This document shows, piece after piece, positions 11,905-49,379 of a stretch of 64,000 nucleotides of DNA. The number at the start of each line of letters is the position of its first letter. Positions within the stretch are counted from its first letter, which is position 1. Source of the DNA: Eubacteriales bacterium mix99 (lineage in GTDB: Bacteria; Bacillota; Clostridia; Caldicoprobacterales; DTU083); the NCBI GenBank assembly GCA_038396605.1, contig CP121690.1:62001-126000 (forward strand). Reading direction: 5' to 3'. A program made the translations under genes and the position numbers. The notes under the pieces are model-generated. The model was not told where the DNA came from and did no database searches. It was given only the letters and a program-made list of their open reading frames with translations.

Positions 11905-14034
11905 CTATTCAAGTTCCAGCCATGTTATACTATGGGGACTAAGGTCGAACCTCATAACATTATTGTCGGCGTTATATTCCACATCTTTATTTACGAACTT
12001 CACTCTATGCGGCATGAATGGAGTATTGCCCTCAGCCAACCCTTCACTGGTCATTTCCTCTGACAGAATTAAATCCAATCCCTTTAATTCATCGGAAAAA
12101 ATTTTCAAAGGAATCTTTTCAAGGGGATGACGATTCACGATAGCCAGGGTAATTTTATCCTCTTTTTCGACGCATAAACTATCCACATAGGGAACATCTT
12201 CTACCTGCGGAGCCATGAAAATTCCTTCCTCCACGTCATAGCCTGATCCTTCACAGCTTATTGGAATCAGATGCCCCCCCGCAAGCCTGGAATACCTTTT
12301 GATCACTTCCACCTGTGGATCCAGGTATATAAATGGTCCTGCTTTTCTGATACAGCCTCCATGCAGAATAGCCGTGGCGTTGGCAACCCGTATATGCTCC
12401 TTCATCCGAATCAACATATTGAGGAAAAGTCCTGCATATACGGCACCCCCGATATTCTGAACCACGGGAAGATCGGGCCTTCCCAAAACGCCCCATTCCG
12501 TAATAGCCAGATCCACCTTTCCGCTCTTGCCCCTGCTGTCGATAAGTTGCAGCAGTTTGGGGATATCCACATCCTCCCATCTGGTTGTATGGGCCATGAT
12601 GGACCGCCAGATATTTTCAATCCTCTCATTGTCACCCAATTGGCTGTTGTTGTCTGGCAATGCATGCAAAGTGATACACTCCAGGTTCCTGCCCCCCTCA
12701 TCAAGAAGAGCCTCATGCCAATGATGATGGGATTCCACTGCGTCAAAAGGACTTCCCGTTGCCAGCAGTTCAATATTCGGGTCTGCAGCCTTCATAGCCC
12801 CGGACCATTCCTGAAACCGCCTTGCATTTTCCTCAGCGCCGCAATGACCAATCTGCCATTCGCCGTATATCTCATTGCCGACTTCCCATAACTTCACATT
12901 ATATGGATCGGAATGACCATTTTCCGCCCGCTTTTTCCCCCATGGAGAATCTTTCGGACCATTCACATATTCGACCCAGGCAGCGGCTTCCTCTGCAATA
13001 CCGCTCCCCATATTTACACAGATATGGGGCTCGGCCCCAATCAGCTCACAAAAGCGCAGAAATTCATCTATTCCAAAAAAATTGTCTTCCATACCACCCC
13101 ACGCCGGATTGGGTAATGTCTGCCGGTAATCAACATCCCCTATACCATTCCAGAAATGATATCCACTTGTGAAATTCCCCCCTGGGCCCCTTAAAACCGG
13201 TGGTGCCAAGGTCCTTGCCTCTTCAATGATATCCGGGTCAAACCCATGGATGTTGTCATCGGGAAGAAGTACCGCCCTGTCTATCCATACATATCCATTC
13301 CCTTCCGCTGTTATGGAAAAATCAATGGGTTCATATCTGTCTGCGGCCCCCTCAGGAACAACCAAATTAAAGTGGATCTTCTCCCAACGATCCTTTGGCC
13401 ACGGTAAATCTGTCCGCACTATCACACTATTTTCATCTGAATTCTGTTCATTCTTTCCTCTTCGCCGGAACTCTACGGAAAGATTTCCTTCCCCCACCGC
13501 CTTGATCCATATATGCCCACTATAGTTCTTTTCTCTATGAAGAGGAGCAAAAATTCCCTGCCTGAGGGAAACCTTTTCCTTCCCTGGATTCAATCTGACG
13601 GAAGTTCCAATCCGCCCTTTTTCGTTGCCTCTGCCCGCCCCATGCGGGACAACTTTCCAGGGGAGTGGGATCCCATCTTTCGTCTCATCATCCAGAATCA
13701 GCATACCAAATCCCGTACAACCAATCTGGGGAGACCACTCCCTGTATTTGTCGATATCTTCTTTCCGCAATCTGTGGATACCTTCGGCAACCCTGCCGTT
13801 ATCCAATAGATTGTTTTTTTGATCCGGTGTCAGATTATGGTCCGCAGCCATAGCCGGATTTCGAAGGAGCTGTGCCAAGATCCCTCCCTGAACAGTAAAG
13901 CCAAGATGCTCCAAAAAATTCCCAAATAATCTGCCGGGTATCGTTCCACCTTCCTTTTGAGAAGCGTGAATACTCAATATCGCCTGATTTTCCGACTTGC
14001 GAACAAAATGAAAACGTTTACTGGCTGGATTCAT
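11905..14034 (-). CDS. abfA: Alpha-L-arabinofuranosidase, GH51 family
   Basis: Glycosidase that removes terminal alpha-L-arabinofuranosyl groups from arabinoxylan or arabinan oligosaccharides. The 709-residue protein has no signal peptide, so it is cytoplasmic. Hallmarks are FGNFLEHLGF near the N-terminus, a beta-sandwich insertion (about 140-260), the barrel segment LRGPGGNFTSGYHFWNGIG, the acid/base motif EVGNEIYG (Glu near 388) and the nucleophile motif ITEWG (Glu near 513), then a C-terminal beta domain. It is longer than the usual 500 residues because of the inserted carbohydrate-binding-like domain. The ATG at 14034 has AAGGTG nine bases upstream; a GTG at 14046 is possible. It stands alone between three broken genes, which suggests it alone was kept under selection. 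A catabolite-repression-like site overlaps its first codons. Confidence 0.9.
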   Translation of the reverse strand: MNPASKRFHFVRKSENQAILSIHASQKEGGTIPGRLFGNFLEHLGFTVQGGILAQLLRNPAMAADHNLTPDQKNNLLDNGRVAEGIHRLRKEDIDKYREWSPQIGCTGFGMLILDDETKDGIPLPWKVVPHGAGRGNEKGRIGTSVRLNPGKEKVSLRQGIFAPLHREKNYSGHIWIKAVGEGNLSVEFRRRGKNEQNSDENSVIVRTDLPWPKDRWEKIHFNLVVPEGAADRYEPIDFSITAEGNGYVWIDRAVLLPDDNIHGFDPDIIEEARTLAPPVLRGPGGNFTSGYHFWNGIGDVDYRQTLPNPAWGGMEDNFFGIDEFLRFCELIGAEPHICVNMGSGIAEEAAAWVEYVNGPKDSPWGKKRAENGHSDPYNVKLWEVGNEIYGEWQIGHCGAEENARRFQEWSGAMKAADPNIELLATGSPFDAVESHHHWHEALLDEGGRNLECITLHALPDNNSQLGDNERIENIWRSIMAHTTRWEDVDIPKLLQLIDSRGKSGKVDLAITEWGVLGRPDLPVVQNIGGAVYAGLFLNMLIRMKEHIRVANATAILHGGCIRKAGPFIYLDPQVEVIKRYSRLAGGHLIPISCEGSGYDVEEGIFMAPQVEDVPYVDSLCVEKEDKITLAIVNRHPLEKIPLKIFSDELKGLDLILSEEMTSEGLAEGNTPFMPHRVKFVNKDVEYNADNNVMRFDLSPHSITWLELE
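14009..14022 (-). promoter_or_regulatory. Candidate cre (CcpA) site in the first codons of the GH51 gene
   Basis: TGAAAACGTTTACT on the plus strand matches the Bacillota catabolite-responsive consensus TGWAANCGNTNWCA at 13 of 14 positions (final base differs). It lies within codons 5-9 of the arabinofuranosidase gene, a position where CcpA can act as a roadblock. Single-site matches occur by chance, so this is tentative. Confidence 0.35.
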
Positions 14035-14122
14035 TTTTAACTTCACCTTACCTTTCGTGCAATTCCCTGCTGCCTGTCCGACAGCTTGTCTTTTCCCATA
14101 TTTTATAAAAGCTGTCCGCTAA

Positions 14123-15161
14123 TTATACTCCGGCCATGCTTCCGTGAATGACGGGGATTTCCCTTGGCCCGAAGGAAGCATTCCGGGAAGCGGATATCCT
14201 GATATCTTCCCCGTCAAAGCTGCAGCGCAAAGTAAAATAAAAGGGTGTTTCAATGAACCGGAGAGTAATCTGACAGACCACATCCTCCGTCCATACGCTG
14301 CTGGCCATGATTTTTCCCGGCAGCCAATCCGCGTGCTCCGGATTTTCCATCCAGTCCCCTGTGCCGCAATGAATCTCCACGATTCCTTTTCCCTTTTCCC
14401 GCAATCGCAGGTTGCACCGCTCCGCCAGGAATTCAAAGGAAATCCTCTCCCATCCCGGTTCGTTCTCCTCCAGAACATAGCTTTTCCCTGTCCGGTCCAA
14501 TGTCTGTGGGGAGGAATTCCTTCCCTTCGGAGGGAAAAGCGCAAGGCTGCGCAGGAATTTTTGAAGCGTTGCACAGACTGGCGGATTCTCCGGCAGCTCT
14601 GCGTCTCCCATGGCAGAAAGAAGATGCCTCCAGACCGACTCCAATACGGATTGCATATCGTCCAATCCGCTTGTAATGGCAATCACGGCATTCTGATCCG
14701 GCATAACGATGCAGAACTGGCCAAAGGCACCGTCTCCACGATAGGCGTTATGCCTGCAGCGCCAGAATTGATAGCCGTATCCCCGGCTCCAGTCGCTCCC
14801 GGGATCCTCTCCATTTGATATATGGGAGCGTGTGGCCTCCTGTACCCATCCTTCCGGTAAAACCCGGGCTCCTTTCCAGATTCCGTCCTGCAGATACAGC
14901 TGCCCGAATCTGGCGATGTCCTCTGTCCGTATGGAAAGGCCCCAGCCGCCGCAGTTGATGCCCATGGGACAGCATTCCCACGTGATGCGGCAGATCCGGC
15001 CGGTATGGATCCCACCACCCTTCCGAAACAACATGCCCGTTGCGAAGCATCATGAAACTGTGCAGCTCCAAGTTCTTCCCTGCGATATCCTCCAGAAACC
15101 CCCGAATGCTCGCCGATGGGATCCCCTGCTTTTCCGGTGTGGATCGTGGCAATTTACTCAT
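14123..15161 (-). pseudogene. Serine hydrolase (beta-lactamase-like), disrupted by internal deletion and frameshift
   Basis: The gene opens well: ATG at 15161 behind AAAGGAGG, encoding MSKLPRSTPEKQGIPSASI and LHSFMMLRNGHVVSEGWWDPYRPDLPHH, the usual start of cytoplasmic class-C beta-lactamase-related hydrolases. Near 14970 the frame shifts by one and the protein jumps to TWECCPMGINCGGWGLSIRTEDIARFGQLYL, which in relatives comes some 130-150 residues later. The missing part contains the SxxK nucleophile and the YxN motif, so no active enzyme can be made. The downstream frame then runs uninterrupted to a TAA at 14123 and still encodes recognisable family sequence (GYGYQFWRCRHNAYRGDGAFGQ), so the lesion looks recent. 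The likely event is one deletion with a junction around PHH/TWE. Confidence 0.8.
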
Positions 15162-15217
15162 GGGAAAGGTCCTCCTTTATTTTTCGAAACCCTTCATTAT
15201 AGATTGCGGTTAACAAT

Positions 15218-16396
15218 TTACTTCACCAGCTCCTGTATCTCATCCGCTGCCCGGTCAATATCCTCATAGCTCAGTGCATCCGATACCTGCAGGCGGATTC
15301 TTGCCTGACCTTCCGGCACGACCGGATAGCAGAAGCCCGTTACATAGATGCCATGCCCGAACAGCTGATTGGCAAGCCGGACAGCCTTCGGCGCATCATA
15401 GATCATAATGGGAATAATGGCACTGTCGCCCTCCAGAATATCAAGTCCCCTGTCCTTCAGCTGCTTTCGAAAATAACGGGTTTTCTCCCTCAGGGAACGT
15501 ACGATCTCCGGATGAACCTCCAGATACTCCAGGGCTGTTCCGGCGATGGCGGTCAACACCGGCGGAAGGGAATTGGAGAACAAATGTGGGCGCGAAGCCT
15601 GAACACACAAATCGATGAGAGATTTTCTTCCTGCCACAAAGCCGCCCCCGGCACCTCCCAGTGCCTTGCCGAATGTGCCGGTAATAATGTCCACCTGACC
15701 CTGCATATGATAGTATTCCGCCGTTCCCTTCCCCGTTTCACCGATTACCCCCGTGGCATGGGAATCATCCACCATCAGGACGGCATCGTATTTGCGTACC
15801 AATTCCACGATTTCCGGAAGCCTGGCAATGTCCCCCTCCATGGAAAACACGCCGTCGGTAAGGACCAGTCGGACCGAGCTGTCCTTCGCTTCCTTCAGCT
15901 TCTCCTCCAGATCCGACATGTCGGAATGTCTGTAAATCGCCTTGTTTACCCCTTTGGCAATCAGTCTGCATCCGTCCACAATGCTGGCATGGTTCAGGGC
16001 ATCGGAAATCACTGTATCACCAGGCTGCAGGAGAGCAGGTATCACCGCAGTATTGGCACTCCAGCAGGAAGAATAGGTAAGCGCCGCTTCCGTCCCCAGG
16101 AATCCGGCAACTTTGTTTTCCAGATCCCTGTGAATATCATAGGTACCGCAGATAAACCTTACACTGGCCCCGCCTGCGCCGTATTTCTGAAGCGCCTGGA
16201 TGCCGCTTTGGATCAGCTCTTCCTTGTCGGATAACCCCAAATAGTTATTGGAACATAGTACCAGAACATCTCCCTTATCTTCAATTCGGGTATGGGCACT
16301 CATCGGGGACTCCAAATACCGGTATTCCTTGTACGTCCCGTCATTTTTCATTTCCTTCAGCTGGGTCCGGATCCTCTCGTACAGTTTTTTGCTCAT
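15218..16396 (-). CDS. kbl: Glycine C-acetyltransferase (2-amino-3-ketobutyrate CoA ligase)
   Basis: PLP enzyme that cleaves 2-amino-3-oxobutyrate with CoA to glycine and acetyl-CoA, the second step of threonine degradation through threonine dehydrogenase. The 392-residue protein is full length for the alpha-oxoamine synthase family. Visible motifs are LCSNNYLGL near the N-terminus, GGASVRFICGTYDIHRDLE, SDALNHASIVDG, the cofactor-binding DDSHATGVIG (Asp-His pair) and TFGKALGGAGGG with the Schiff-base lysine at about 244. The ATG at 16396 follows GGAGGG by six bases. The gene lies 40 bases downstream of the threonine 3-dehydrogenase gene on the same strand, an arrangement known from many bacteria, which supports the glycine-forming role over related 8-amino-7-oxononanoate synthase. 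Confidence 0.93.
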   Translation of the reverse strand: MSKKLYERIRTQLKEMKNDGTYKEYRYLESPMSAHTRIEDKGDVLVLCSNNYLGLSDKEELIQSGIQALQKYGAGGASVRFICGTYDIHRDLENKVAGFLGTEAALTYSSCWSANTAVIPALLQPGDTVISDALNHASIVDGCRLIAKGVNKAIYRHSDMSDLEEKLKEAKDSSVRLVLTDGVFSMEGDIARLPEIVELVRKYDAVLMVDDSHATGVIGETGKGTAEYYHMQGQVDIITGTFGKALGGAGGGFVAGRKSLIDLCVQASRPHLFSNSLPPVLTAIAGTALEYLEVHPEIVRSLREKTRYFRKQLKDRGLDILEGDSAIIPIMIYDAPKAVRLANQLFGHGIYVTGFCYPVVPEGQARIRLQVSDALSYEDIDRAADEIQELVK

Positions 16397-16436
16397 GAAT
16401 ATCCCTCCGTTTTTACAATATATTCATTTTTCAAAG

Positions 16437-17522
16437 CTATATCTGTGTGGTATCAGATGGGACAGCAGATTCCCTCACCCAATTCATCACCACCTTGCCG
16501 GAAGAACCGGATGCCATTGTGTCAAAAGCCTCCTGATAATCGGTATAATCAAAGCGATGGGTAATCACCGGCGCGATATCAAGACCGGACTGAATCATGG
16601 ACTGCATCTTGTACCATGTCTCAAACATTTCCCGTCCATAGATTCCCCTGATGGTAAGGCCGCTGAAGACAACCTTATCCCAATCAATCGCGGTCTGTCC
16701 TTCCTGAATGCCCAGCAGCGCTATTTTGCCGCCGTGGCACATCACATCGATCATACTCCGGAACGCACTGTCATTGCCCGACATTTCCAGGCCCACATCA
16801 AATCCTTCCTTCATTCCCAGCCTGCCCATGCAGTCTTCAATGGAATCGGTACGGATATTCAATGCGGCTGTGACGCCCATTTTCTTTGCCAGTTCCAGAC
16901 GATAGGAGTTGATATCCGTTATGACGACATGTCTTGCCCCCGCATGTCGTACAACGGCTGCGGCCATAATACCGATGGGGCCCGCGCCGGTAATGAGGAC
17001 ATCCTCCCCCAGGACAGGAAAACTCAGAGCAGTATGTACGGCGTTGCCAAGAGGATCAAAACAACTGAACAATTCCTCAGGAATGGATTTGTCACAGTAC
17101 CACACATTGGTCTGCGGGATTACAACATATTCGGCAAAAGCGCCGGGACGGTTTACACCGACTCCGCTGGTATCCTTGCATAAATGCCTCCTTCCGGCAA
17201 GGCAATTGCGGCACCGGCCACAAACCACATGTCCCTCCCCGGAAACCAGATCGCCGGGTTTGAAATCCGATACATTGCTTCCCACTTCATCAATGACCCC
17301 GACAAATTCATGGCCGATGGTAAGGGGAGTCCGGATCGTTCTCTGAGCCCATTCATTCCATTTATAGATATGAATATCGGTACCGCAGATCGCTGTTTTC
17401 CGCACCTTTATCCGGACATCGTTGATTCCGGTTTCCGGAACAGGCACCTCGTCCAGCCAGATTCCGAGTCTGTCATACTTTTTTATTAATGCTTTCATCA
17501 TCCTGCCGGTGCTCATGTTCAT
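16437..17522 (-). CDS. tdh: L-threonine 3-dehydrogenase (zinc-dependent)
   Basis: Cytoplasmic NAD-dependent medium-chain dehydrogenase that oxidises L-threonine to 2-amino-3-oxobutyrate. About 361 residues. The catalytic zinc ligands are visible in [12 protein letters not shown] (Cys near 46) and GHEFVG (His 71, Glu 72); the structural zinc cysteines are in [15 protein letters not shown] (101-115). The Rossmann motif reads [11 protein letters not shown], and the KWNEWAQ segment is characteristic of threonine dehydrogenases rather than sorbitol dehydrogenases. The start is ambiguous: ATG codons at 17522 and 17516 both follow AAGGAAG, and a later MMKALIKKY start fits most relatives. It is the first gene of the tdh-kbl operon. 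The roughly 350 bases upstream show no recognisable riboswitch. Confidence 0.92.
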
Positions 17523-17875
17523 TCTTCCTTTCTATATTGAAATGGGTGAAATGTTGGACAGGTTGCTATTTACTTCCATTATATTGTACACGGCACCGTA
17601 AGTCAATCCTTACATTCCATGAGCGTATGCACTGCGTGTTTCTGATCCATCATAATCTGTTTTCTTTGTGCCAGGCCGACGGATAGAAAGCATCACAAAA
17701 AAATCTAAAAATTTTAAAAATGTCAAAAAGAAAAGAAGGATTTATGTAGGAAGTGTCGAATAATTTAAAATAAGAAAGAAATAAGATGAAGCAAAATGGA
17801 AGGACCATGCATGGTAGAATCCCACATCATCTTATCTCCTTAAAAAAGCCTTCCATTTCTGTATTTCGTTCGTAT
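17523..17875. other. Intergenic region upstream of tdh, no gene seen
   Basis: AT-rich non-coding stretch. It contains a long-spaced inverted repeat (AAATGGAAGG at 17794-17803 with its complement at 17849-17858) enclosing a perfect 12-base palindrome ACCATGCATGGT at 17804-17815. A TTGACA-like hexamer on the minus strand at 17721-17726 has no good -10 partner. Short open frames here have no ribosome binding site and one runs through the terminator, so none is called. Confidence 0.5.
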
Positions 17876-17917
17876 GAAAAAAGAGCAGTCCTCTCATATC
17901 TGTACTGCTCTTTTTTC
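17876..17917 (-). terminator. Bidirectional intrinsic terminator after the TIM-barrel gene
   Basis: A perfect 14-base stem (GAAAAAAGAGCAGT and its complement) around a 14-base loop. The A-rich and T-rich arms give a U-tract in either direction. It lies about 110 bases beyond the stop of the sugar isomerase-like gene at 18025 and probably ends that transcript. Confidence 0.85.
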
Positions 17918-18024
17918 ATATTCTCTTTCATATCTCCATTTTCCGCTACTATCTTCCTGCATGATCTCTTCCATGAATTTTCCAAAAAGGTTCGCTCGGC
18001 TCCGGACTTTCGACCTTTACGAAA

Positions 18025-18831
18025 TCAAATCAATGTTTTCATATAGGAAATAAAAGAGGGGACAGCAATTTCCGGCTCCGCAAGATCCGGATGCCATTTC
18101 TTTTCCCATTCCAGAGACAGGTACCCGTCATAATGATGCTGTTTCAGGATATCCAGACTCTCTCCAATGGGCAGATCCCCTTCGCCGACCAGACACAACT
18201 TCGCACGGGGCCCCTTCCCCCTGGAATCCTTGTAATGGGTATGTCGGATATATTTTCCTAATCGGTCATAGGTCACAGCCATAGGCTCACCGAAAGCCTT
18301 GTAAGGATGATTGACATCCCACAGCACCCCGACTGCCGGGCTGTGAGTATGGGAAAGGACAGCAGAAAGATCATCGGACGCTGCAAAATCCCCATGGGTC
18401 TCAATCAGGACGCAGACATTTTTTCCTTCTGCATACTCTCCCAGCTCCTCCAGACATTTGGCCACCCAGCGTATGGTATGCTGCTTTTCATCCGGATTCG
18501 GAATATTGTTTCCAAATACACGTATGTACGGGACTCCAAGCTCCTGTGCAAGATCGATGGTCGCCTTGCCTTCCTCCATGTTTGTCTGGTAGCCCGATTC
18601 GTCATGAAGACTGCATGAAGTATCCAGACAGATGATCTCCAGCCCCTGCTGTTTTAAATCCTTTTTGGTCTGCTCCAGGTTTTCCGGCAGAAAAGGTCTT
18701 GCTTTGGGGAGAAACATTTCCCCCTCTATCCCGCGGATCTCGATTCCGTCATAACCAAGACGACCCGCTTCTTCCAGGATTTTCTCCCAGGTCCATTCCG
18801 GACAGGACAACGTGGTAAACGAAAACTTCAT
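18025..18831 (-). CDS. Sugar phosphate isomerase/epimerase family protein (xylose isomerase-like TIM barrel)
   Basis: A 268-residue TIM-barrel protein of the AP endonuclease 2/xylose isomerase-like superfamily, which isomerises or epimerises sugars and inosose-type compounds. Typical segments are FSFTTLSCPEWTWEKIL, YDGIEIRG, YIRVFGNNIP, VLIETHGDFA, VGVLWDVNHPY and YLSLEWEKKWHPDL; Glu, Asp, His and Glu in the last ones form the metal site. The ATG at 18831 is preceded by GGAGGG, while the in-frame ATG nine codons earlier has no ribosome binding site. It appears to be a single-gene unit with its own terminator at 17876. The exact substrate cannot be read from the sequence; a second, distinct barrel of the same superfamily is at 29948. 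Confidence 0.85.
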   Translation of the reverse strand: MKFSFTTLSCPEWTWEKILEEAGRLGYDGIEIRGIEGEMFLPKARPFLPENLEQTKKDLKQQGLEIICLDTSCSLHDESGYQTNMEEGKATIDLAQELGVPYIRVFGNNIPNPDEKQHTIRWVAKCLEELGEYAEGKNVCVLIETHGDFAASDDLSAVLSHTHSPAVGVLWDVNHPYKAFGEPMAVTYDRLGKYIRHTHYKDSRGKGPRAKLCLVGEGDLPIGESLDILKQHHYDGYLSLEWEKKWHPDLAEPEIAVPSFISYMKTLI

Positions 18832-18929
18832 CTGGCACCCTCCTCTTGGCGTATACAATTCGTCCTGTGCATATTATAGCTTATTTTCCAGAATACCACA
18901 AGGTAAAATCCAGTTATGTCCAGTTCCCA

Positions 18930-19331
18930 TCAGGCAATACCGAGCTCATCCAGGCTTTTGTGAAGGCGCTCAAAAAGCAGGCCTGCCACAAACCATGCCG
19001 GTGCAAAGGAAAAATTGATATAGCCGTTCATCGCAAACTTTCCCGTATAATGCCAGGGACAGATCCCAAACAGGGAATCCATCAAAAAGCCACTGATGTA
19101 CTCAATGCAGTAAATCAGCAGGACCCAGATCAACCCCCGGATTCCCCATGGCAAATGAGCAATGCGGTCATGGATCCGCTCAAGGAATACGGCACATCCG
19201 TAAATAAAAAACATCCAGATACTGGTATACCCTGAAAGCTTGTAGTTGCCCTGGAGCAGGGAACCGAGACCCGTCCATATGATCTCAATTCCCCAGCCGG
19301 TAAAACCATATAAAATAAATCTTTTCAACAT
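18930..19331 (-). CDS. Small multi-span membrane protein, putative ABC-transporter type IV family
   Basis: A 133-residue integral membrane protein with about four hydrophobic segments. It opens LKRFILYGFTGWGIEIIWTG and carries LIYCIEYISGFLMDSLFGICPWHY and NGYINFSFAPAWFVAGLLFE. The E-Y-SG-L-D-W-Y and NGYI-F-PAW patterns match the Clostridia family annotated as putative ABC-transporter type IV (formerly DUF1113), whose function is unknown. No ATPase or other transporter gene is adjacent. The start codon at 19331 has no strong ribosome binding site. Its 3' end is about 100 bases from the TIM-barrel gene start, so it may be cotranscribed with that gene. Confidence 0.7.
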   Translation of the reverse strand: MLKRFILYGFTGWGIEIIWTGLGSLLQGNYKLSGYTSIWMFFIYGCAVFLERIHDRIAHLPWGIRGLIWVLLIYCIEYISGFLMDSLFGICPWHYTGKFAMNGYINFSFAPAWFVAGLLFERLHKSLDELGIA

Positions 19332-19452
19332 GCCGATATTTTACCCAAATATGAAAATATTAGGTATGGTTTATACTATGGAATATTCTTTCTTTCTCAA
19401 AAAGCCATAAATACAGAGTTGCCGGGTAACCGATCCTGTCCCATTTTCAAAA

Positions 19453-19486
19453 AAATAATCACCCTGCGGTAGCAGGATGATTATTT
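19453..19486 (-). terminator. Intrinsic terminator of the aldo/keto reductase gene
   Basis: Stem AAATAATCA-C-CCTG with complement CAGG-A-TGATTATTT and loop CGGTAG, about 75 bases after the stop at 19561. On the minus strand the descending arm ends GATTATTTTTTTG, a good U-tract. Confidence 0.85.
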
Positions 19487-19560
19487 CAAAATAGTCAGAT
19501 GGGGTGATAATCTTCTTCATCTCTCCATCTATAGAAGATGGAAAATTCTCAACACGTTTG

Positions 19561-20388
19561 TTAAAAATCAAAATGATCCGGATCGCTGCCGGTCCGGTAA
19601 TTTTGATTCAAATCGCTGATAACATCCATGTCCTCCTGCGATAATTCAAAATCAAATACCCTGGAATTCTCGATAATCCGATCCTTATGAACGGATTTCG
19701 GGATGGTAACGACTCCATTTTGCAGATCCCAGCGCAGTATGATCTGTGTCGGTGATTTTCCGTATTTTTCTCCCAGCTGCTTCAGAACAGGCTGATCCAG
19801 TTGTCCATGAAGCAACGGACTGTATGCTTCGAACTGTATTTTTTTATTCTTGCAGAACTTGCGCAAGTCTACCTGAGTCAGCAGCGGATGAAACTCCACC
19901 TGGTCCACCATGGGAATAACATGAGCGCTTTCCGTCAGATCATCCAGATGATGGGGATGGAAATTGCACACTCCGATTGCCCGTACCCGTCCGTCTTTAT
20001 ACAATTTTTCCATGGCGCGCCAGGAATCCTTGTATTTTCCCTTCACCGGCCAGTGAATCAGATACAAATCCAGATAATCCAGCTTCAGCTTTTCCATACT
20101 GCGGTCAAACGCCTTCAGGGCAGAATCATACCCCTGATCCCCGTTCCACAGTTTTGTCGTAATAAACAGCTCTTTCCGCGGCACTCCGCAGTCCCGGATC
20201 GCATTGCCGACTCCCTCTTCATTGCCATAGACCGCAGCTGTATCAATGGACCGATACCCGGCTTCCACGGCATATTTTACAGCGTTCTCCACCTCCTGGC
20301 CGTCTTTCGCCTGCCATACGCCAAGGCCCATGACGGGCATTTTCACGCCATTCTGCAATGTTACGGTACTGGTCAGACTGTTCAGCAT
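19561..20388 (-). CDS. Aldo/keto reductase
   Basis: NADPH-dependent oxidoreductase of the AKR superfamily, about 275 residues, cytoplasmic. The catalytic tetrad is visible: Asp and Tyr in RSIDTAAVYGNEEGVG, Lys in ITTKLWNGD and His in LYLIHWPVKGKYKDSW. The signature VRAIGVCNFHPHHL and the cofactor-binding TIPKSVHKDRIIEN near the C-terminus are complete. The frame is open for 32 codons upstream, but MLNSLTSTVTLQNG at 20388 fits the family start; AAAGGA lies about ten bases upstream. Relatives reduce 2,5-diketogluconate, methylglyoxal and various sugar aldehydes, so the substrate is left open. It is a single gene with its own terminator at 19453. Confidence 0.9.
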   Translation of the reverse strand: MLNSLTSTVTLQNGVKMPVMGLGVWQAKDGQEVENAVKYAVEAGYRSIDTAAVYGNEEGVGNAIRDCGVPRKELFITTKLWNGDQGYDSALKAFDRSMEKLKLDYLDLYLIHWPVKGKYKDSWRAMEKLYKDGRVRAIGVCNFHPHHLDDLTESAHVIPMVDQVEFHPLLTQVDLRKFCKNKKIQFEAYSPLLHGQLDQPVLKQLGEKYGKSPTQIILRWDLQNGVVTIPKSVHKDRIIENSRVFDFELSQEDMDVISDLNQNYRTGSDPDHFDF

Positions 20389-20584
20389 TCCCTGCACATC
20401 CTTTCTCTCATTTTGCAACTCTGTTTTCCGGTATGTTATCCTTTTGTTCTTTCCCTTATTCCTCTCATGGTTATGTAAGGGCACTGTTCCTTCTGCACCC
20501 TATTCCCATCGTCTCTTATTTCATTATTATATACCACATATTGCAGAGGCTGAAACAGAAACATGAAAATTTAGCCACTTTTTT

Positions 20585-23500
20585 CTATTTTTTCACCTTC
20601 AGCAAAAAAGTCCGGATTTCATACGGCCGGATTTCAAAGGAAAAACTGCTGCCCTTCAACGGAATCTCCGCCAGGGGCTTTTCCATCAGGTCACACTCGA
20701 TGACTTCCTCCAGGTCCCTGAAGAACGTCAGATTCACCTTACTTCTCCGGTTGTAGCATTCATACATCCGAACGACAATCGCCCCGCTGTCTTCTGCTTT
20801 TTTAACCGTATCAATGACCACATTGGGGCAGTCCACCTTGATCATGGAGAGGTTCCCCGGCAGCACTTCACTGCTGTCGCTGCCGTCTCCCCGGCCAATC
20901 GCCGTGTGCAGGGGCACATTCAAACGGTAAGCCATCGGTACGGTGCCTCCTTCTCTCCAGCTTTCCGCATGGGGATACAGGGAATAGGTAAATTCATGCT
21001 CGCCCCGGTCCGCCTTCGGATTCGGATCCATGCCGGATTTCAAAAGTGTCAGACGCATATTGCCGTCCCGGATATCATGACCATATTTGCAGTCATTCAG
21101 CAGACTGACACCGTAACCATCCTCCGACAGATCCGCCCATTTCTGCGCGCAAACTTCAAACCTTGCCGTATCCCAGGAGGTGTTCCAGTGCGTGGGCCTT
21201 TCCACGTTGCCAAACTGAATCTCATATGTTGCCTTATCAGAATGCACATCAACGGGAAAAGCCGCTTTCAACAGAATCCGATCCTCTTTCCAGTCCACAT
21301 GGGTTTGAAAATCGATCCTTGGAATATCCCGGTACAGGATCATATCCTGCACGATGGTGGAGTCCAGAAATTTCCTTGTAATGCGAAGTCTGCCCCGGAT
21401 CGGTCCTGTCTCCAGAACCTCCATTTCCTGCACATCGTCCACTTCCCACATTTTCTCCTGGTAGTAGATATCAATGTCCCAATTGTCAAAACTCATGGGC
21501 CGGTCCTCGAAAGCCTGGATCACATTGCCTCTTTCCTTTCCCGAAAGGACCTGCCGCCGATTCTTTTTGTCAAACAGGGAGATAATGGTTCCTTTCTCAT
21601 CCAGTTCCACACGGAAAAACGGATTTTCCATGCAGTTCTTTGTGATGCTCAGATCCCCCTGACAGAGGGATGCCTCCTCCGGCTTCCCGGTATCCGCCCC
21701 GGATGCCTCCCGAATCCGGTAGGCCCGGTATCCTTTCGCCGGAATATTTTTAATATAAACAAGTGCCCTGTCGGCATCCCCATCCTTTATGATCTGAAAC
21801 GGCACAACCGCATCGTCTTCGTCCCATATTTCAGGATCCTTCATGCCTTCGGGCAGTGCAAAGGATGCCATATCGTCCCGGGGAAAGGACAGGGTGTTGA
21901 ATATGACCAGCGTAAGGTCCTTCTGCGGATCCTTTTGGCGGATATGACCGGCAAGGAACTGAAGCGATGTATGCAGCAGCTCCCGGCCATTTGCCAAAAT
22001 CTTTTCATATTGCCTGTGGGAATCCTGGTACACTTCATAAATGGCGGATCCCGGTATAATGTCATGGAACTGATTCAAAAGGATTTTCTCCCAGCCCAGG
22101 TTGATCCGGTCCTGCGGATACTCCCTGCCAAAAGCACTGCAAAGGGAAGACAGCATCTCCACATCCTGATACAGCAATTCACTTTTGCGGTTGAACCGCT
22201 TGTTCTTTGCCATGGAAGTATAGGTTCCGCGGTGATATTCCAGATACAGCTCCCCTACCCATTTGGGAAGGTGCTTATTCCCACTCACTGTTTTCTCCAG
22301 TTTATGGAAATAGTCCCGGGCCGTCCCCATCTTTACCTTCGGACAGCCAGGGATTCCCTTTGCCATCCTTCTGGCATTTTCCAGCATATCAATGGTCGGA
22401 CCTCCGCCTCCGTCTCCATGGCCGAAGGAAATCAGAACGTCGTTGTTGATCTCCTTCTGCTGGTATCTCTGCCAGGCACCCATGACCTGGGACGGATTCA
22501 GATAGCCGTTATAAGTGGTAAAGTGGGATTTAATCTCCTTCTGGTAATCACATGTCGTGACAAAATGGGTCAGAATCTCCGTACCGTCGATACCTTTCCA
22601 TAGAAAGGTATCGTAGGGAAGCTTATTGAACTGGTTCCAGGCAATCTTGGTCGTTGTAAAGTACCGGATACCCGATTTTTTCATAATCTGGGGAAGAGCG
22701 GCACTGTAACCGAACACATCCGGAAGCCACAGGATTTCATTTGTTACGCCGAACTCCTTTTTAAAAAACCGGGTGCCGAAAAGAATCTGACGAACCAGGG
22801 ATTCCCCGGAAGTGAGATTGCAGTCCGCTTCCAGCCACATGGCGCCTTCCGGCTCCCACCGGCCTTCCCGGACCCGCTCTTTGACTTTTTCATAGACTTC
22901 CGGATGATCTTCCTTTAAGAATTGATACAACTGAGGCTGGCTGGACATAAACAGATATTCCGGATATTCCTTCATCAGCTTCAGCACGGTGGAAAAGCTC
23001 CGGGCCGTCTTTTCCCTGGTCCGGGCAAGGGTCCACAGCCAAGCTACATCAATATGGGTATGCCCGACGCAGGTGGCAATGACATCCTCCTGTCCGCACC
23101 TTTTCCCGTAAAACTCCGACTCCATAAACTTCCGTGCCCGTTCCACGGATTGATAAAAATCTGTGGAGCCGGGTTTGCGCAAATCCAGCAGATTTACCGT
23201 ATCGTTCAAGGCGTTCAGAATATCCACCCGGTTTTTATCATTCTCATCCAGCCGGTCGGCAATCTCCAGCGGCACGGAAAGATCAAACCACAGATCCTTT
23301 ACGTTTTCTTCCAATGCAGCGACAGTCAATTTCAAATCGTCTATCCCATCGGTATATGCAGAAAGATCAATCTGGACAGTAACCCCCTTCTCGGCAGAAT
23401 GATCCAGAATCACCACTTTGTGATTCCCGTCCACCCCCTGGACAACCTCATCGTTCACATACAGCAACAACTGAGGATTTCCTGCACCCCAGCCGCTGCC

Positions 23501-23767
23501 GCCCGTCTGGATCCGGATCACCACTGTACGTCCATCCAATGCATCCGGCATCTGAAAAACCGTCCGAAACCAGGCATGGACACCCCGGCCGCCCCAGCTG
23601 CCGCCGGTTTGGTAATCCTGCCACGGGGAAGGATCCTGCTCCGCATCCTGCAGAGTCCGAAAATCCCCTGTCTTCATTTGAAAGGATCGAATTTCCACTG
23701 CATCGGAAAACATCCGGCGCATCAGTTCCTCCATCACTTTTCTGGTGCGCTCCATTACAAAAAACAT
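20585..23767 (-). CDS. Alpha-mannosidase, GH38 family
   Basis: Large retaining exo-alpha-mannosidase, 1060 residues, cytoplasmic (no signal peptide). An N-terminal beta domain with GGSWGGRGVHAWFRTVFQ precedes the catalytic barrel. The zinc motif is GHTHIDVAWLW (His 236 or 238 and Asp 240), and the nucleophile Asp is near 350 in WLPDVFGYSAALPQI. The acid/base region SFGHGDGGGGPT and the C-terminal segments FDKKNRRQVLSG and YECYNRRSKVNLTF complete the family pattern. The ATG at 23767 follows AAGGGGGC by seven bases. Bacterial GH38 enzymes of this type degrade mannosyl oligosaccharides imported from N-glycans or mannans. It is followed by an aldo/keto reductase 196 bases away and preceded by the GH172 gene, which suggests a glycan-catabolic cluster. 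Confidence 0.93.
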   Translation of the reverse strand: MFFVMERTRKVMEELMRRMFSDAVEIRSFQMKTGDFRTLQDAEQDPSPWQDYQTGGSWGGRGVHAWFRTVFQMPDALDGRTVVIRIQTGGSGWGAGNPQLLLYVNDEVVQGVDGNHKVVILDHSAEKGVTVQIDLSAYTDGIDDLKLTVAALEENVKDLWFDLSVPLEIADRLDENDKNRVDILNALNDTVNLLDLRKPGSTDFYQSVERARKFMESEFYGKRCGQEDVIATCVGHTHIDVAWLWTLARTREKTARSFSTVLKLMKEYPEYLFMSSQPQLYQFLKEDHPEVYEKVKERVREGRWEPEGAMWLEADCNLTSGESLVRQILFGTRFFKKEFGVTNEILWLPDVFGYSAALPQIMKKSGIRYFTTTKIAWNQFNKLPYDTFLWKGIDGTEILTHFVTTCDYQKEIKSHFTTYNGYLNPSQVMGAWQRYQQKEINNDVLISFGHGDGGGGPTIDMLENARRMAKGIPGCPKVKMGTARDYFHKLEKTVSGNKHLPKWVGELYLEYHRGTYTSMAKNKRFNRKSELLYQDVEMLSSLCSAFGREYPQDRINLGWEKILLNQFHDIIPGSAIYEVYQDSHRQYEKILANGRELLHTSLQFLAGHIRQKDPQKDLTLVIFNTLSFPRDDMASFALPEGMKDPEIWDEDDAVVPFQIIKDGDADRALVYIKNIPAKGYRAYRIREASGADTGKPEEASLCQGDLSITKNCMENPFFRVELDEKGTIISLFDKKNRRQVLSGKERGNVIQAFEDRPMSFDNWDIDIYYQEKMWEVDDVQEMEVLETGPIRGRLRITRKFLDSTIVQDMILYRDIPRIDFQTHVDWKEDRILLKAAFPVDVHSDKATYEIQFGNVERPTHWNTSWDTARFEVCAQKWADLSEDGYGVSLLNDCKYGHDIRDGNMRLTLLKSGMDPNPKADRGEHEFTYSLYPHAESWREGGTVPMAYRLNVPLHTAIGRGDGSDSSEVLPGNLSMIKVDCPNVVIDTVKKAEDSGAIVVRMYECYNRRSKVNLTFFRDLEEVIECDLMEKPLAEIPLKGSSFSFEIRPYEIRTFLLKVKK

Positions 23768-24014
23768 GATCTGCCCCCTTCTTGTTTTGATCCCCGCTCC
23801 GCAGCAGGAACGGAGATCCTACGGATTGAATCAAATATATCATAACATAACAGGTATGGAATTACAATTTTTTTCGTCATATTTCCTTGAAGTAATGGTA
23901 CCCGATCCTAATATATCATGACATGACATATGAGCACGTGCAGGACCTATGTTGGTTCCTGATTTGCCTGCTGTCTGCCAAAACTCAGCAATTTTCTTCG
24001 GATACAAGCAGCCA

Positions 24015-25100
24015 TCAGATAATCTCCAGTGCATCATCGTCCGGCAAAGGCGGAAATTTCTCTGCCGGGAGGGTTTGATACCAATATGCCACAGAAGAAA
24101 TGTCATCCTGCAGGGGCAGATAACGGCCGCCGCTTCTCCAGCCCAATGCCTGAACCGTGACCCTGAGATCCGTTTCAAAACGAATGGGATCCGCAATATG
24201 CCAGCGGTACATGCCGAATCGGGTCTGGGAATTGTATACACCGTCCGGTCGGATCACCTGAGGCAATCCGGCATAGGCAGTCGAAAACTCTTCGTATTGA
24301 TGAGTTGCCTTGTTTTCAAAATTATAGGATCCGCAAAAATAATCCTCCGTGCCGGTGCCACAAATGGTGGGATACGCACGGTCTTCGTCCAGGTAGAATT
24401 TGACTTCCCCTTCTCCCCACCAGCCGTTATTGTTGGAGCCCCAGCACATATAGACGCCTACATACTGCCCTTTCCCGTGAACTCCATCCAGAATGGTATA
24501 GACTTCTCTGTAGGGCAGAGGATTTACCCTGCGGAACCGGGCATGAAAATACAGTGCATCTACCGGTACCTCCGTCAGGCAGTAGTCAATCTGATAATAA
24601 ATTGTGGATACCTCATCCGTCCGGTTCTCCAAAGTAATTCTGCATCCTTTCCGGAAGGGCATCTGCCAGTAGCAGTTGAAGGCACTGCCAGGATTTACAC
24701 AGACTGCCAGGGAATTCACAGGCGCATAAACGCCCCACCCGCAGGCAAAAAAATCACCAATGGGACACTCCACAGACGGATTGTCCTGCCCGTCCCAGTA
24801 TATGCGGAGAATCAAATGCCGTAAGTTTCCCACCGGAGTCAGCCAGATATGCTGAATACAGCCCGGTCCGTCTATCCCGGCCAGAGAAAAGGTACTGTGG
24901 GGCCTGATATGGATGAAAGGGTTTACCTTCCAACCCTTGCCCAGCTCCCGGGCCGGCGCTCCTGCCGTTCCGTCTGCCAGCTCACATCGGGCACCTCCGC
25001 CCTTTTCGCCGGTAAGGTTCTCCGGGCTGATGGACCTTGTTTTTGCGTTGGATGCCAGAAATAAATTGCTCATGTTGGTTCCGATTCCGTGAAACATCAT
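24015..25100 (-). CDS. GH172 (DUF2961) glycoside hydrolase-like protein
   Basis: A 361-residue protein of the DUF2961 family, part of which is now GH172 (alpha-D-fructofuranosidase, difructose anhydride and alpha-D-arabinofuranan-acting enzymes). Visible features are NLTGEKGGGA, ILRIYWDGQDNPSVECPIGDFF, the GEGEVKFYLDED acidic segment, CGTGTEDYFCGSYNF and the C-terminal YRWHIADPIRF. The Glu residues in GEGE and TGTEDYF lie about where the catalytic pair of GH172 is reported. There is no signal peptide. The ATG at 25100 follows AAGGAGG; earlier frame starts lack a site. It lies 247 bases upstream of the GH38 mannosidase gene on the same strand. Substrate specificity within GH172 cannot be assigned. 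Confidence 0.85.
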   Translation of the reverse strand: MMFHGIGTNMSNLFLASNAKTRSISPENLTGEKGGGARCELADGTAGAPARELGKGWKVNPFIHIRPHSTFSLAGIDGPGCIQHIWLTPVGNLRHLILRIYWDGQDNPSVECPIGDFFACGWGVYAPVNSLAVCVNPGSAFNCYWQMPFRKGCRITLENRTDEVSTIYYQIDYCLTEVPVDALYFHARFRRVNPLPYREVYTILDGVHGKGQYVGVYMCWGSNNNGWWGEGEVKFYLDEDRAYPTICGTGTEDYFCGSYNFENKATHQYEEFSTAYAGLPQVIRPDGVYNSQTRFGMYRWHIADPIRFETDLRVTVQALGWRSGGRYLPLQDDISSVAYWYQTLPAEKFPPLPDDDALEII

Positions 25101-25165
25101 GCGACTCCTCCTTATCCATACGAACACACGATTACAAATAAATTATAAAGGAATCGCCCGGAAAG

Positions 25166-25651
25166 TCAATGATATTCGGCACGCCGCCTGCCCCTCGCCA
25201 GATAAAACGCACAGCAGAGCAGAACGGCCAGCAGTACACCGCAGCTGTCGATCAGCATATCCCGAACCTGGCAGCTTCGCCCGGGAACAAACAACTGATG
25301 CAGTTCATCTGTTGCCGCATAGGCCATGCCGGCCGCCTGTGCCCTGAGACCTGTCCGCAAGCCGCTCCGGGGAGACGGTCTTCTGGAAGCCGGGCGGAAT
25401 GCTGCAAAAAACAAAGCCCCCAAAACGGCAAATTCCAGAAAGTGTGCTGATTTTCTTACAAACAAATGCAAATCAAAACGATCCGTATTGATATTTAAAA
25501 ATCCTGCCATTGATTCGATGATCTGTGTGATTCCCCCGCTCATCCGGGAAGAATCGTTCCCCGGCTGATGGGAGAAGGCAAAAATGATGCACATCCACAG
25601 AACAGGGAGAGTCCATACATACCTGGTGTTTTTCCTATCCGTTTGTTTCAT
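25166..25651 (-). CDS. VanZ family membrane protein
   Basis: A 161-residue integral membrane protein of the VanZ family. Four hydrophobic segments are visible: the first with WTLPVLWMCIIFAFSHQPG, then KSAHFLEFAVLGALFFAAF, then GMAYAATDELHQLFVPGRSCQVRDMLID, then a C-terminal LLAVLLCCAFYLA. The FSHQ, RKSAHF-EF and DE-HQ-F-PGR motifs define the family. VanZ was named from the teicoplanin-resistance cluster, but most members, like this one, stand alone, and the general function is not known. Weak AAAGGA lies about 15 bases before the ATG at 25651. It is separated from agrD by a terminator at 25681, so it is either read through at low level or has its own promoter. Confidence 0.9.
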   Translation of the reverse strand: MKQTDRKNTRYVWTLPVLWMCIIFAFSHQPGNDSSRMSGGITQIIESMAGFLNINTDRFDLHLFVRKSAHFLEFAVLGALFFAAFRPASRRPSPRSGLRTGLRAQAAGMAYAATDELHQLFVPGRSCQVRDMLIDSCGVLLAVLLCCAFYLARGRRRAEYH

Positions 25652-25680: not shown

Positions 25681-25725
25681 AAAAAAGGGCCTGCACTGTT
25701 GAAGATATCAACAGTGCATGTCCCA
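25681..25725 (-). terminator. Intrinsic terminator after agrD
   Basis: Stem with perfect 10-base arms TGCACTGTTG and CAACAGTGCA, extended by GGGaCA/TGcaGGCCC-type outer pairs, followed on the minus strand by CCCTTTTTTTAAG. It separates the agrBD unit from the VanZ gene. Confidence 0.9.
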
Positions 25726-25745: not shown

Positions 25746-25880
25746 TTACTCCCTGCGCAGGACTTTGGGCTCTTCCGGTTGATAGAACCAGATCCAGCAT
25801 GCAGAAGCAGATGCCATGGTAGCAAGGAATGTCAGGAAACCAGCACATACGGTTGCGGCCTTCACGATGGACTTTTTCAC
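25746..25880 (-). CDS. agrD: AgrD-like cyclic peptide autoinducer precursor
   Basis: A 44-residue peptide too short for most gene finders. It has an amphipathic, positively charged N-terminus (MKKSIVKAATVC), a hydrophobic middle (GFLTFLATMASASA), a core ACWIWFY and an acidic recognition tail QPEEPKVLRRE. This is the layout of clostridial AgrD precursors, whose tail also carries a QPEEP-type motif. By position the mature signal should be a thiolactone ring of Cys-Trp-Ile-Trp-Phe with an optional short N-terminal tail. The GTG start at 25880 overlaps the TGA stop of agrB as GTGA, so translation is coupled, and AAAGGAGG lies nine bases upstream inside agrB. A terminator follows at 25681. No agrC or agrA is present in the window. 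Confidence 0.85.
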   Translation of the reverse strand: MKKSIVKAATVCAGFLTFLATMASASACWIWFYQPEEPKVLRRE

Positions 25881-26548
25881 GCTCTAACGCCTCCTTTCCA
25901 CGGATTAAATTTTATTAAGAGAGAATCCATCCAGCAGATGACCCGGTGCATCACCGGGGTAATGCTGAGCGCCTGCCAAAGCATTCCCAGCTGTATGCAG
26001 ACAAGGAACTGAAGTGCCATTTCCGAATCCGCTTTCAGATGAACCTCCCATAATATCGCAGTAAGCAGCTCTGCTGCCATTACAAAGAAGAAGGATGATT
26101 TTTTCAGCCGATACCGGGTATCCGGATTTTTGATCCTTTTGTTCGGACTGTCCGCCGGTGCATACCGATACAGGAAAACGAGAATCAAAGCAAGGGCTCC
26201 TCCTTGAAAAAGAAGAGCAGGCATCCGTGATGAAAAAAGCAGCACATACTTCACAAGAAGGGAAAGTCCTCCAAAGATCAGAACACTGAGTACCGCACAG
26301 CGATAGGGGGAAGTGGCGTGCACCCCTCCGGAAAATTGACGCAACAGGGCAGCTGTCAGTGACAGGACGAGAACCTCCGGCAACGATCCGGCCAGAATAC
26401 CAAACAGAACAATCAGAAGAATGGTAAACAGGGTTTGCAAAAAATTCAGGGCACCATATTCCAGAACTTCCCGATGGTCCTGGTCCAGATTCAGAATAGC
26501 AGCTGTCTTCGATGCAATCGCCTTGCTGGTCTTTTCAATGATGGACAT
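25877..26548 (-). CDS. agrB: AgrB membrane endopeptidase, autoinducer processing
   Basis: Membrane cysteine protease that trims the AgrD C-terminal tail and forms the thiolactone. The 223-residue protein has a basic amphipathic N-terminus and about five to six membrane spans. The active-site segment reads LLRQFSGGVHATSPYRC, placing His at 77 and Cys at 84, the same numbers and spacing as the catalytic pair of Staphylococcus aureus AgrB. A KRIKNPDTRYRLKKSS loop lies between the later spans. The ATG at 26548 has AGGAGAAGG about nine bases away. It overlaps agrD by four bases. A terminator at 26648 insulates it from the UDP-glucose dehydrogenase gene upstream, so agrBD is its own unit. Somewhat longer than typical AgrB (about 190-200). 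Confidence 0.93.
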   Translation of the reverse strand: MSIIEKTSKAIASKTAAILNLDQDHREVLEYGALNFLQTLFTILLIVLFGILAGSLPEVLVLSLTAALLRQFSGGVHATSPYRCAVLSVLIFGGLSLLVKYVLLFSSRMPALLFQGGALALILVFLYRYAPADSPNKRIKNPDTRYRLKKSSFFFVMAAELLTAILWEVHLKADSEMALQFLVCIQLGMLWQALSITPVMHRVICWMDSLLIKFNPWKGGVRA

Positions 26549-26647
26549 TTCAAACCGCCTTCTCCTGCAATTCCCTTATTTACTTATTTATATTTACATA
26601 TATTCTCTTCGACACCGCTCATGAAATTCCTTCCACATAAAAGAAAA

Positions 26648-26687
26648 AACTATAAAAAATGATGAATTCTCACCATTTTTTATAGTT
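26648..26687 (-). terminator. Intrinsic terminator of the UDP-glucose dehydrogenase gene
   Basis: A perfect 14-base inverted repeat (AACTATAAAAAATG and complement) with a 12-base loop, followed on the minus strand by TTTTTCTTTT. It lies 36 bases after the stop at 26723. Confidence 0.85.
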
Positions 26688-26722
26688 CCTCCTGCAAAAT
26701 AAGGCCATCTTCCATCCGGCAA

Positions 26723-48286: not shown

Positions 48287-49180
48287 TTAATCCTGCAGCT
48301 TTTCGGGCTTGCCGCTCTCATAGGACTTTGCCGCGGCATCCAGCAAATTCATTACTTCCAGGGCGTCATCCAGACACAGGTCCGCTTTTCCGGTGCGGAA
48401 GAAACGTTCAATCACTTTCAGCTCCTCAGCATAGTATACAGGGCTGTCCACGGAATAGGAAGGATTCGACTTGCCGTCCCTCAAAGTACCGCCGTAAGTA
48501 TAGGCGCCCTCTGTCAGCTCGACAACTCCTCTTCTTTTGTCCGGATATTCCACAATGGCCACGGCACCGGCATGATCTTTCCGGGTATCCACACAAATGG
48601 CGCCCCGGCCCATGGCTCTTTCCAGCATCTCAAAGCAATGCACGCCGTACCATATCACACCGCTTCCTACCGGCGGAATTCCCAAAGGTCCGTAGCAATA
48701 GGTCTGCATGGGCTTCGAGACCATGCGGCAGGCATCGGTCAACCCCTGTACATATCGCAGCGGAGAGGAAGAAAGCACCTGAACATTATTTTCCTTCGCA
48801 AGATCATAGATCGCTTTTCCATTTTCATAATGATCCGCCAAAGGCTTATCCAGGAAAATGGGTTTGTTGCATTTCATACATTTCTTGAAATACTCCAGAT
48901 GGTAAGCAGGATCATTGATCTCAATCATAATGGCATCGCAATCGGAAACTGCGTCGTTGAAATCCTCCGTTACCCGGACACCCCAGGCTTCCAGCTGCTG
49001 CTGTCTCTCATCCAGTACCTGCCTGTTGGTAAAAGGCGTCTCAAAGCGCATGCAGGTAACAGCTCTCAGGCCTTCCACCCTGCTTTCCTCAGGGCAGTCG
49101 GGAGCCTGCATCCTCCGCGGAAGTTCCACCGAATGACTCGTGTCCAGTCCGATAACAGCAACTCTGATCTCTTTGTTCAC
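48287..49180 (-). CDS. Gfo/Idh/MocA family oxidoreductase, short form
   Basis: A 297-residue family member with the start NKEIRVAVIGLDTSHSVELPRRM (the GLDTSHS loop replaces the classic GxGxxG), DCDAIMIEINDPAYHLEYFKKC and a DKP motif in PIFLDKPLADHYENG. The C-terminal domain is shorter than usual, with GSGVIWYGVHCFEMLERAMGRG and RRGVVELTEGAYTYGG. A GTG start at 49180 follows AAAGGAG by eight bases. It is the first gene of the three-oxidoreductase operon; a perfect 22-base palindrome, the likely LacI operator, lies 129 bases upstream. It shares the altered loop style with the next gene, so the two may form a functional pair. Confidence 0.85.
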   Translation of the reverse strand: MNKEIRVAVIGLDTSHSVELPRRMQAPDCPEESRVEGLRAVTCMRFETPFTNRQVLDERQQQLEAWGVRVTEDFNDAVSDCDAIMIEINDPAYHLEYFKKCMKCNKPIFLDKPLADHYENGKAIYDLAKENNVQVLSSSPLRYVQGLTDACRMVSKPMQTYCYGPLGIPPVGSGVIWYGVHCFEMLERAMGRGAICVDTRKDHAGAVAIVEYPDKRRGVVELTEGAYTYGGTLRDGKSNPSYSVDSPVYYAEELKVIERFFRTGKADLCLDDALEVMNLLDAAAKSYESGKPEKLQD

Positions 49181-49330: not shown

Positions 49331-49379
49331 ATTATTTGGGTTCTACACTTATCCCTGAAATCCTTCTGAAATTCAAAAA

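Follow-up and report, generated by a model that had tools for sequence, protein, structure and literature searches.

What reads a cyclic peptide signal when no receptor gene lies beside the genes that make it? The question is raised by an agrBD pair in the window, by which we mean the whole 64,000-nucleotide stretch of DNA analysed here (C1:62001-126000, C1 being the one 3.13-Mb contig of its genome, G000). An initial annotation had described the pair as an orphan with an aromatic thiolactone product, whose signal might act through a distant or different sensor or on other species. The features of the locus are listed in Table 1.

Table 1. Features of the agrBD locus, in window coordinates
Feature	Position	Strand	Match or basis
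vanZ-family gene, directly 3' of agrD	25166..25651	-	PF04892, E 1.1e-23
Intrinsic terminator 3' of agrD (11-bp stem, 5-nt loop, T-run)	25692..25718	-	
agrD, cyclic peptide precursor, 44 aa, GTG start	25746..25880	-	TIGR04223
agrD codons for predicted ring Cys-Trp-Ile-Trp-Phe, residues 28-32	25785..25799	-	sequence
agrB, membrane cysteine peptidase, 223 aa	25877..26548	-	PF04647
AgrB Cys84 codon	26297-26299	-	
AgrB His77 codon	26318-26320	-	
Putative sigma-H-type promoter element AGGAATT-N10-TGTCGAA, 83 nt 5' of the agrB ATG	26608..26631	-	
Terminator-like hairpin between ugd and agrB	26645..26690	-	

Family profiles confirmed the pair, and its interval (25746-26548) was exactly as annotated. 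AgrB matched PF04647 with 127.1 bits (E 6.4e-37; cut-off, 23), and AgrD matched NCBIfam model TIGR04223 with 51.3 bits (cut-off, 19). The staphylococcal AgrD Pfam model scored the window AgrD at 14.4, below its cut-off of 22.7. As expected of the AgrD family, agrD lies next to agrB and encodes a Cys core followed by a conserved, charged P-E-x-P C-terminal tail in the five sequences compared. The GTGA overlap of the two genes (25877-25880) and the catalytic residues His77 and Cys84 of AgrB were likewise as described, and both residues are unchanged across an alignment of 12 AgrB relatives. A genome search for further copies returned this one AgrB. Between G000 and its congener G001 (Firmicutes bacterium UBA4874), dN/dS was 0.24 for agrB and 0.11 for agrD, and 0.07 to 0.32 for the genes neighbouring them. 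Because of the family matches, the invariant His77 and Cys84, and these low dN/dS values, we conclude that the agrBD pair is real and is maintained under purifying selection. From its family membership and conserved residues, AgrB is predicted to cleave AgrD and to form the ring.

The core of AgrD reads ASASA-CWIWF-YQPEEPKVLRRE, with CWIWF at residues 28 to 32; the annotated core and tail (ACWIWF-YQPEEPK) were thus read correctly. The AgrD of Clostridium perfringens has the register ...ACLWFT/HQPEEP. Judged by where the conserved QPEEP tail lies, in a register that we take to be that of C. perfringens, the ring presumably has five residues and closes at Phe32; an aromatic ring of this size agrees with the conserved site of C-terminal processing. 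Among orthologues, CWIWF is identical in G001, CLIWF takes its place in G012, and CWIWM occurs in G004 and G006. An alignment of five family sequences showed that these core variants are conservative across genera, the rest of the AgrD frame being fixed. Cleavage of the leader at ASASA/C would leave a tail-less ring. Five-residue thiolactones of this tail-less kind turn into homodetic cyclopeptides, in the Listeria case within minutes at pH 7 (PMC11297923). By analogy, without an N-terminal tail the predicted thiolactone may not last and may likewise become a homodetic cyclopeptide.

We examined how the pair is likely to be transcribed. A terminator with a T-run follows agrD, as annotated, and a second hairpin separates ugd from agrB; G001 also has a hairpin 5' of agrB. 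Because of the hairpins on both sides, agrBD appears to form its own transcription unit. The element preceding agrB in the window has the general form AGGAWTT-N10-TGTMGAA. Searched with at most two mismatches, this form occurs 5' of the first agr-cluster gene in all six agrB-bearing family genomes, with its exact spacing kept, and in 12 of 27 clade loci, compared with 0.17 expected by shuffling; neighbouring spacings were found at zero or one loci. The published SigH pattern is AGGA, 17 to 18 nt, and GAAT (PMC12456013). The window element conserves AGGA-N17-GAA and has G as the fourth -10 base, where the SigH pattern has T. From this match, the agrB promoter may be of the sigma-H type, and its conservation suggests growth-phase control of agrBD. 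Under such control, signal output would depend on growth phase, AgrA would not be required, and feedback through AgrA would be unnecessary.

The TGTCGAA half of the element was also considered as a Spo0A box. We rejected this reading, since the fixed AGGAWTT-N10-TGTMGAA spacing suits sigma-H -35 and -10 sites better. TGNCGAA sites were nevertheless seen 10 times in 37 upstream regions, compared with 1.06 expected, and the promoter element may overlap Spo0A binding. Two more perfect copies of AGGATTT-N10-TGTMGAA lie in the window, at 17737-17760 (+) and 49341-49364 (-), and ten shuffles yielded none. One copy precedes a gene for a Gfo/Idh-type oxidoreductase (48287-49180, -), and no clear gene follows the other. 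These copies suggest that the sigma-H-type element is general in the G000 genome.

The 64-kb window contains no match to LytTR or to HATPase_c_5, in agreement with the annotated absence of agrC and agrA nearby; the nearest HATPase_c_5 matches outside it are at C1:230129 and C1:257769. The initial annotation had also named an adjacent agrCA pair in close relatives as evidence against itself. None was found, and no GHKL kinase gene adjoins agrBD within the sequence available for G001, G004, G006, G007, and G012. On the other side of the vanZ-family gene, carbohydrate-use genes occupy 11905-25127; by inspection and Pfam they include alpha-L-arabinofuranosidase-like, alpha-mannosidase-like, and sugar-isomerase-like genes and one for a DUF2961 protein.

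The usual cluster of the clade has the order X, agrB, agrD, and a gene for a six-helix membrane sensor fused either to GGDEF and HD-GYP domains or to a PAS-histidine kinase. X is a five-helix membrane protein, about 157 aa long. It is encoded directly 5' of agrB in G004, G006, G007, and G012, where the G007 contig stops inside agrB and shows X alone. In G004 and G006 a six-helix membrane protein with a GGDEF domain is encoded 3' of agrD, its HD-GYP domain being recognized by Pfam in G004 and by motif in G006; in G012 the start of the sensor is seen at the contig end. Genome searches at E 0.01 detected neither X nor the sensor in G000 and G001. In the AgrB tree, the window AgrB lies inside the X/sensor clade as sister to that of G012 (support 100/99 and 99/95). 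The gene order in the window is agrB-agrD-vanZ, the last two genes being approximately 95 bp apart; in G004 (L026) vanZ comes after the sensor-GGDEF-HD-GYP gene. For this reason, vanZ would mark the site at which the sensor was lost, and the AgrB tree together with the vanZ synteny with G004 argues that the window locus descends from an X-agrB-agrD-sensor cluster. The simplest account of these sequence comparisons is a loss of X and of the sensor in the window's genus, seen in two genomes, one of them a draft. The orphan reading is thus right in that a real pair stands without a local agrCA, but the pair does not appear to be primitively solitary; it looks like the remnant of a larger cluster.

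The X-agrB-agrD-sensor order also occurs in Clostridium tetanomorphum (where the ORF list did not pick out agrD), C. drakei, Clostridium sp. OS1-26, Clostridium sp. KNHs214, and a contig labelled "Lutibacter sp. B2" (L056). By its name the last belongs to Bacteroidota; its agr cluster is clostridial, its AgrB groups with those of Clostridium, and the label is probably wrong. To survey the class, we searched 391 evenly drawn genomes and counted sensor matches with E<1e-20 as strong. There were 20 strong matches, of which 17, one in each of 17 genomes, adjoin agrB or agrD, most of these genomes having X as well; all 17 genomes with a strong match carry one beside agrB/agrD, a linkage to be read with the fact that the sensor and X alignments were seeded from agr-linked proteins and so are biased towards matches of that kind. 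Conversely, the AgrBs nearest to that of the window come nearly all from the 17 sensor genomes, apart from those of the window's genus, of G220, and of G022, the contig of which breaks off early.

The output domains attached to the sensor vary. GGDEF and/or HD-GYP motifs were present at about 11 loci and PAS-histidine-kinase-like sequence at at least five; Pfam confirmed PAS-HisKA-HATPase in C. tetanomorphum and GGDEF plus HD in G004 and L056. At one locus (L103:86-2641) the agr cluster has two X genes and a sensor domain alone (201 aa), with no output domain. A receptor for the agrD product would be expected to show this pattern, in which the sensor beside agrD stays constant while its outputs are exchanged. 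From gene order, the likeliest receptor in the clade is therefore the sensor and/or X. Linkage need not identify the receptor, because the C. perfringens agrBD peptide is received by the unlinked VirS (PMC10602386).

Profile and fold comparisons were less informative. A first profile comparison gave no match for X as a stand-alone AgrC sensor domain. An X profile built from 11 sequences aligned with the N terminus of a solitary kinase of G000, discussed below, over 115 columns at E 7.6e-4, with only 25% probability; the resemblance of X to an AgrC sensor domain is suggestive only. The model of X (pLDDT 87) had no convincing match in the PDB, the best being rhodopsin helices at Z 5.4. The model of the sensor, a weak one (pLDDT 70), had no significant match either; its best, nonsignificant matches were ImcA (a membrane protein, in a GTP-analogue structure) and membrane domains of adenylyl cyclases. 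At two further loci (L116:1-2121 and L121:1474-3564), agrB and agrD are followed by genes for an X-like membrane protein and then a short two-helix GHKL kinase. This arrangement looks like an AgrC split into a sensor gene and a kinase gene, and the gene order fits a split receptor.

We consider it fairly probable that the window agrBD is a functional signal generator orphaned from its local receptor. The pair would be transcribed as its own unit at a growth transition and not via AgrA feedback, given the putative sigma-H-type promoter. AgrB would then cut AgrD after Phe32 and close a Cys28-Phe32 thiolactone, as its family and conserved residues suggest, and removal of the leader, plausibly after ASASA, would leave a tail-less five-residue ring that may become a head-to-tail cyclopeptide. 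Comparison among genomes shows that the cluster of the ancestor, like that of the sister genera, was X-agrB-agrD and a membrane sensor with GGDEF and HD-GYP output, and that X and the sensor have since gone from the window's genus. In relatives, the peptide would be read by the membrane sensor and/or X, leading to changes in c-di-GMP level or in phosphorylation. In G000 another reader would be needed, the most plausible being a solitary AgrC-like GHKL kinase, or else a neighbour species that keeps the sensor. A wider claim we hold to be somewhat less likely than not: that this whole clostridial agr clade swapped AgrC/AgrA for a free-standing X and a six-helix sensor with interchangeable GGDEF/HD-GYP or PAS-histidine kinase output, the peptide directly setting c-di-GMP, and that the signal half outlived the receiving half in the window's genus.

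The producer probably reads its peptide, if at all, through an unlinked sensor, and the solitary AgrC-like kinase (458 aa; C1:1723666-1725042, L012:4667-6043) is the first candidate. It lies 1.6 Mb from agrBD, 5' of mrnC and of a gene for a sigma factor, by its context sigH, and no response regulator adjoins it. Several hydrophobic segments precede its phosphoacceptor His, which is invariant in eight aligned sequences. Orthologues are present in 9 of 13 family genomes, namely in all six that bear agrB and in three of the seven that do not (G002, G003, and G005). Because it is found also in these three agrB-less genomes, the kinase may be unrelated to agrBD; 6/6 versus 3/7, in one small tree, is a weak association. 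The marker that the initial annotation proposed for AgrC-like receptors, HATPase_c_5, was rejected as unspecific after matching in 13 of 14 control genomes.

It seems unlikely that the peptide is directed at other species, whether to serve them or to act against them, its producer having stopped reading it. The genome has neither X, nor the sensor, nor an intact agrCA pair, and relatives with close cores (CWIWM and CLIWF) retain the sensor cluster, as such a role would lead one to expect; however, the solitary kinase could be the receptor, and a producer that gains nothing from a costly signal would need some particular reason to keep it.

We regard as quite unlikely a split classical Agr system, in which the peptide is sensed by a distant, genus-specific REC+LytTR regulator and short two-helix GHKL kinase acting as an orphan AgrCA. 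The regulator is the sole LytTR gene of each genus member. In G001 the pair is intact (L017:5577-7143): a 268-aa GHKL kinase is encoded next after a 255-aa REC+LytTR protein (PF00072, PF04397); the C-terminal part of the regulator has a dN/dS of 0.16, and a weaker sigma-H-type element with the same spacing precedes the regulator gene in both genomes. In G000, however, the AgrA-like gene (L011:4714-5760 = C1:1110713-1111759; LytTR at C1:1111157, about 1.02 Mb from agrBD) is frameshifted in a T-run, so that no functional AgrA was found in this genome, and a GHKL kinase remnant lies behind it, yet agrBD is intact. The frameshift may be an assembly error; the adjacent kinase is also a remnant. Moreover, the kinase of the pair has two predicted membrane helices and no AgrC-type sensor, and the agrB-bearing G004 and G007 have no LytTR. 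The initial annotation lacked the clade's neighbouring candidate receptor, which is a six-helix sensor and not AgrC, the decay of the sole AgrA-like gene and its partner kinase in G000, and the conserved sigma-H-type element. A vestigial locus heading for loss after its receptor module went is very unlikely. The decay of X, of the sensor, and, in G000, of the LytTR pair speaks for it; against it, the dN/dS values of agrB and agrD are low, and ring, promoter element, terminator, and catalytic residues are intact in both species.

With agrBD read as a signal generator that has lost its local receptor, the window locus falls into the known category of orphan agrBD pairs and is a natural case of signal genes outliving receptor genes. 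The X/sensor agr architecture with its non-AgrC candidate receptors is provisionally new: in a literature search of incomplete coverage, we found no paper describing it or tying agrBD to a diguanylate cyclase gene, and earlier notice is possible. Which protein receives the peptides of orphan clostridial AgrBD pairs has yet to be established, as noted for C. difficile AgrD1 (PMC10602386). A conserved neighbour that is a membrane sensor with two kinds of output is a direct receptor candidate, and offers a testable route from cyclic peptide to c-di-GMP.

Among known systems, Staphylococcus aureus agrBDCA shares with the window the His77/Cys84 peptidase AgrB and a five-residue ring derived from AgrD (predicted in the window); unlike it, the window locus has neither agrC/agrA nor AgrA feedback, and its AgrD is too distant for the staphylococcal Pfam model. 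The predicted tail-less five-residue ring resembles the tail-less AIPs of Listeria monocytogenes and Ruminiclostridium cellulolyticum; in the window, the sequence is CWIWF and the chemistry is predicted only, whereas Listeria keeps agrCA. C. perfringens, like the window, has agrBD without adjacent agrCA and what we take to be the same precursor register. Its ring sequence differs, and two hypothetical genes are co-transcribed 5' of its agrB (CPE1563-CPE1562-agrB-agrD; PMC2706048), whereas agrB in the window has no such partner on its 5' side. C. perfringens reads its agrBD peptide through VirS/VirR (PMC10602386), to which G000 has no intact LytTR counterpart. The agr1 locus of Clostridioides difficile (agrB1D1), like the window pair, is an orphan agrBD with no cognate agrCA; its receptor is unidentified, and it is linked to a sporulation stage (PMC10602386). 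It is switched on by an intact RgaS-RgaR, whereas in the window's genome the LytTR gene is frameshifted and a candidate sigma-H-type promoter is present.
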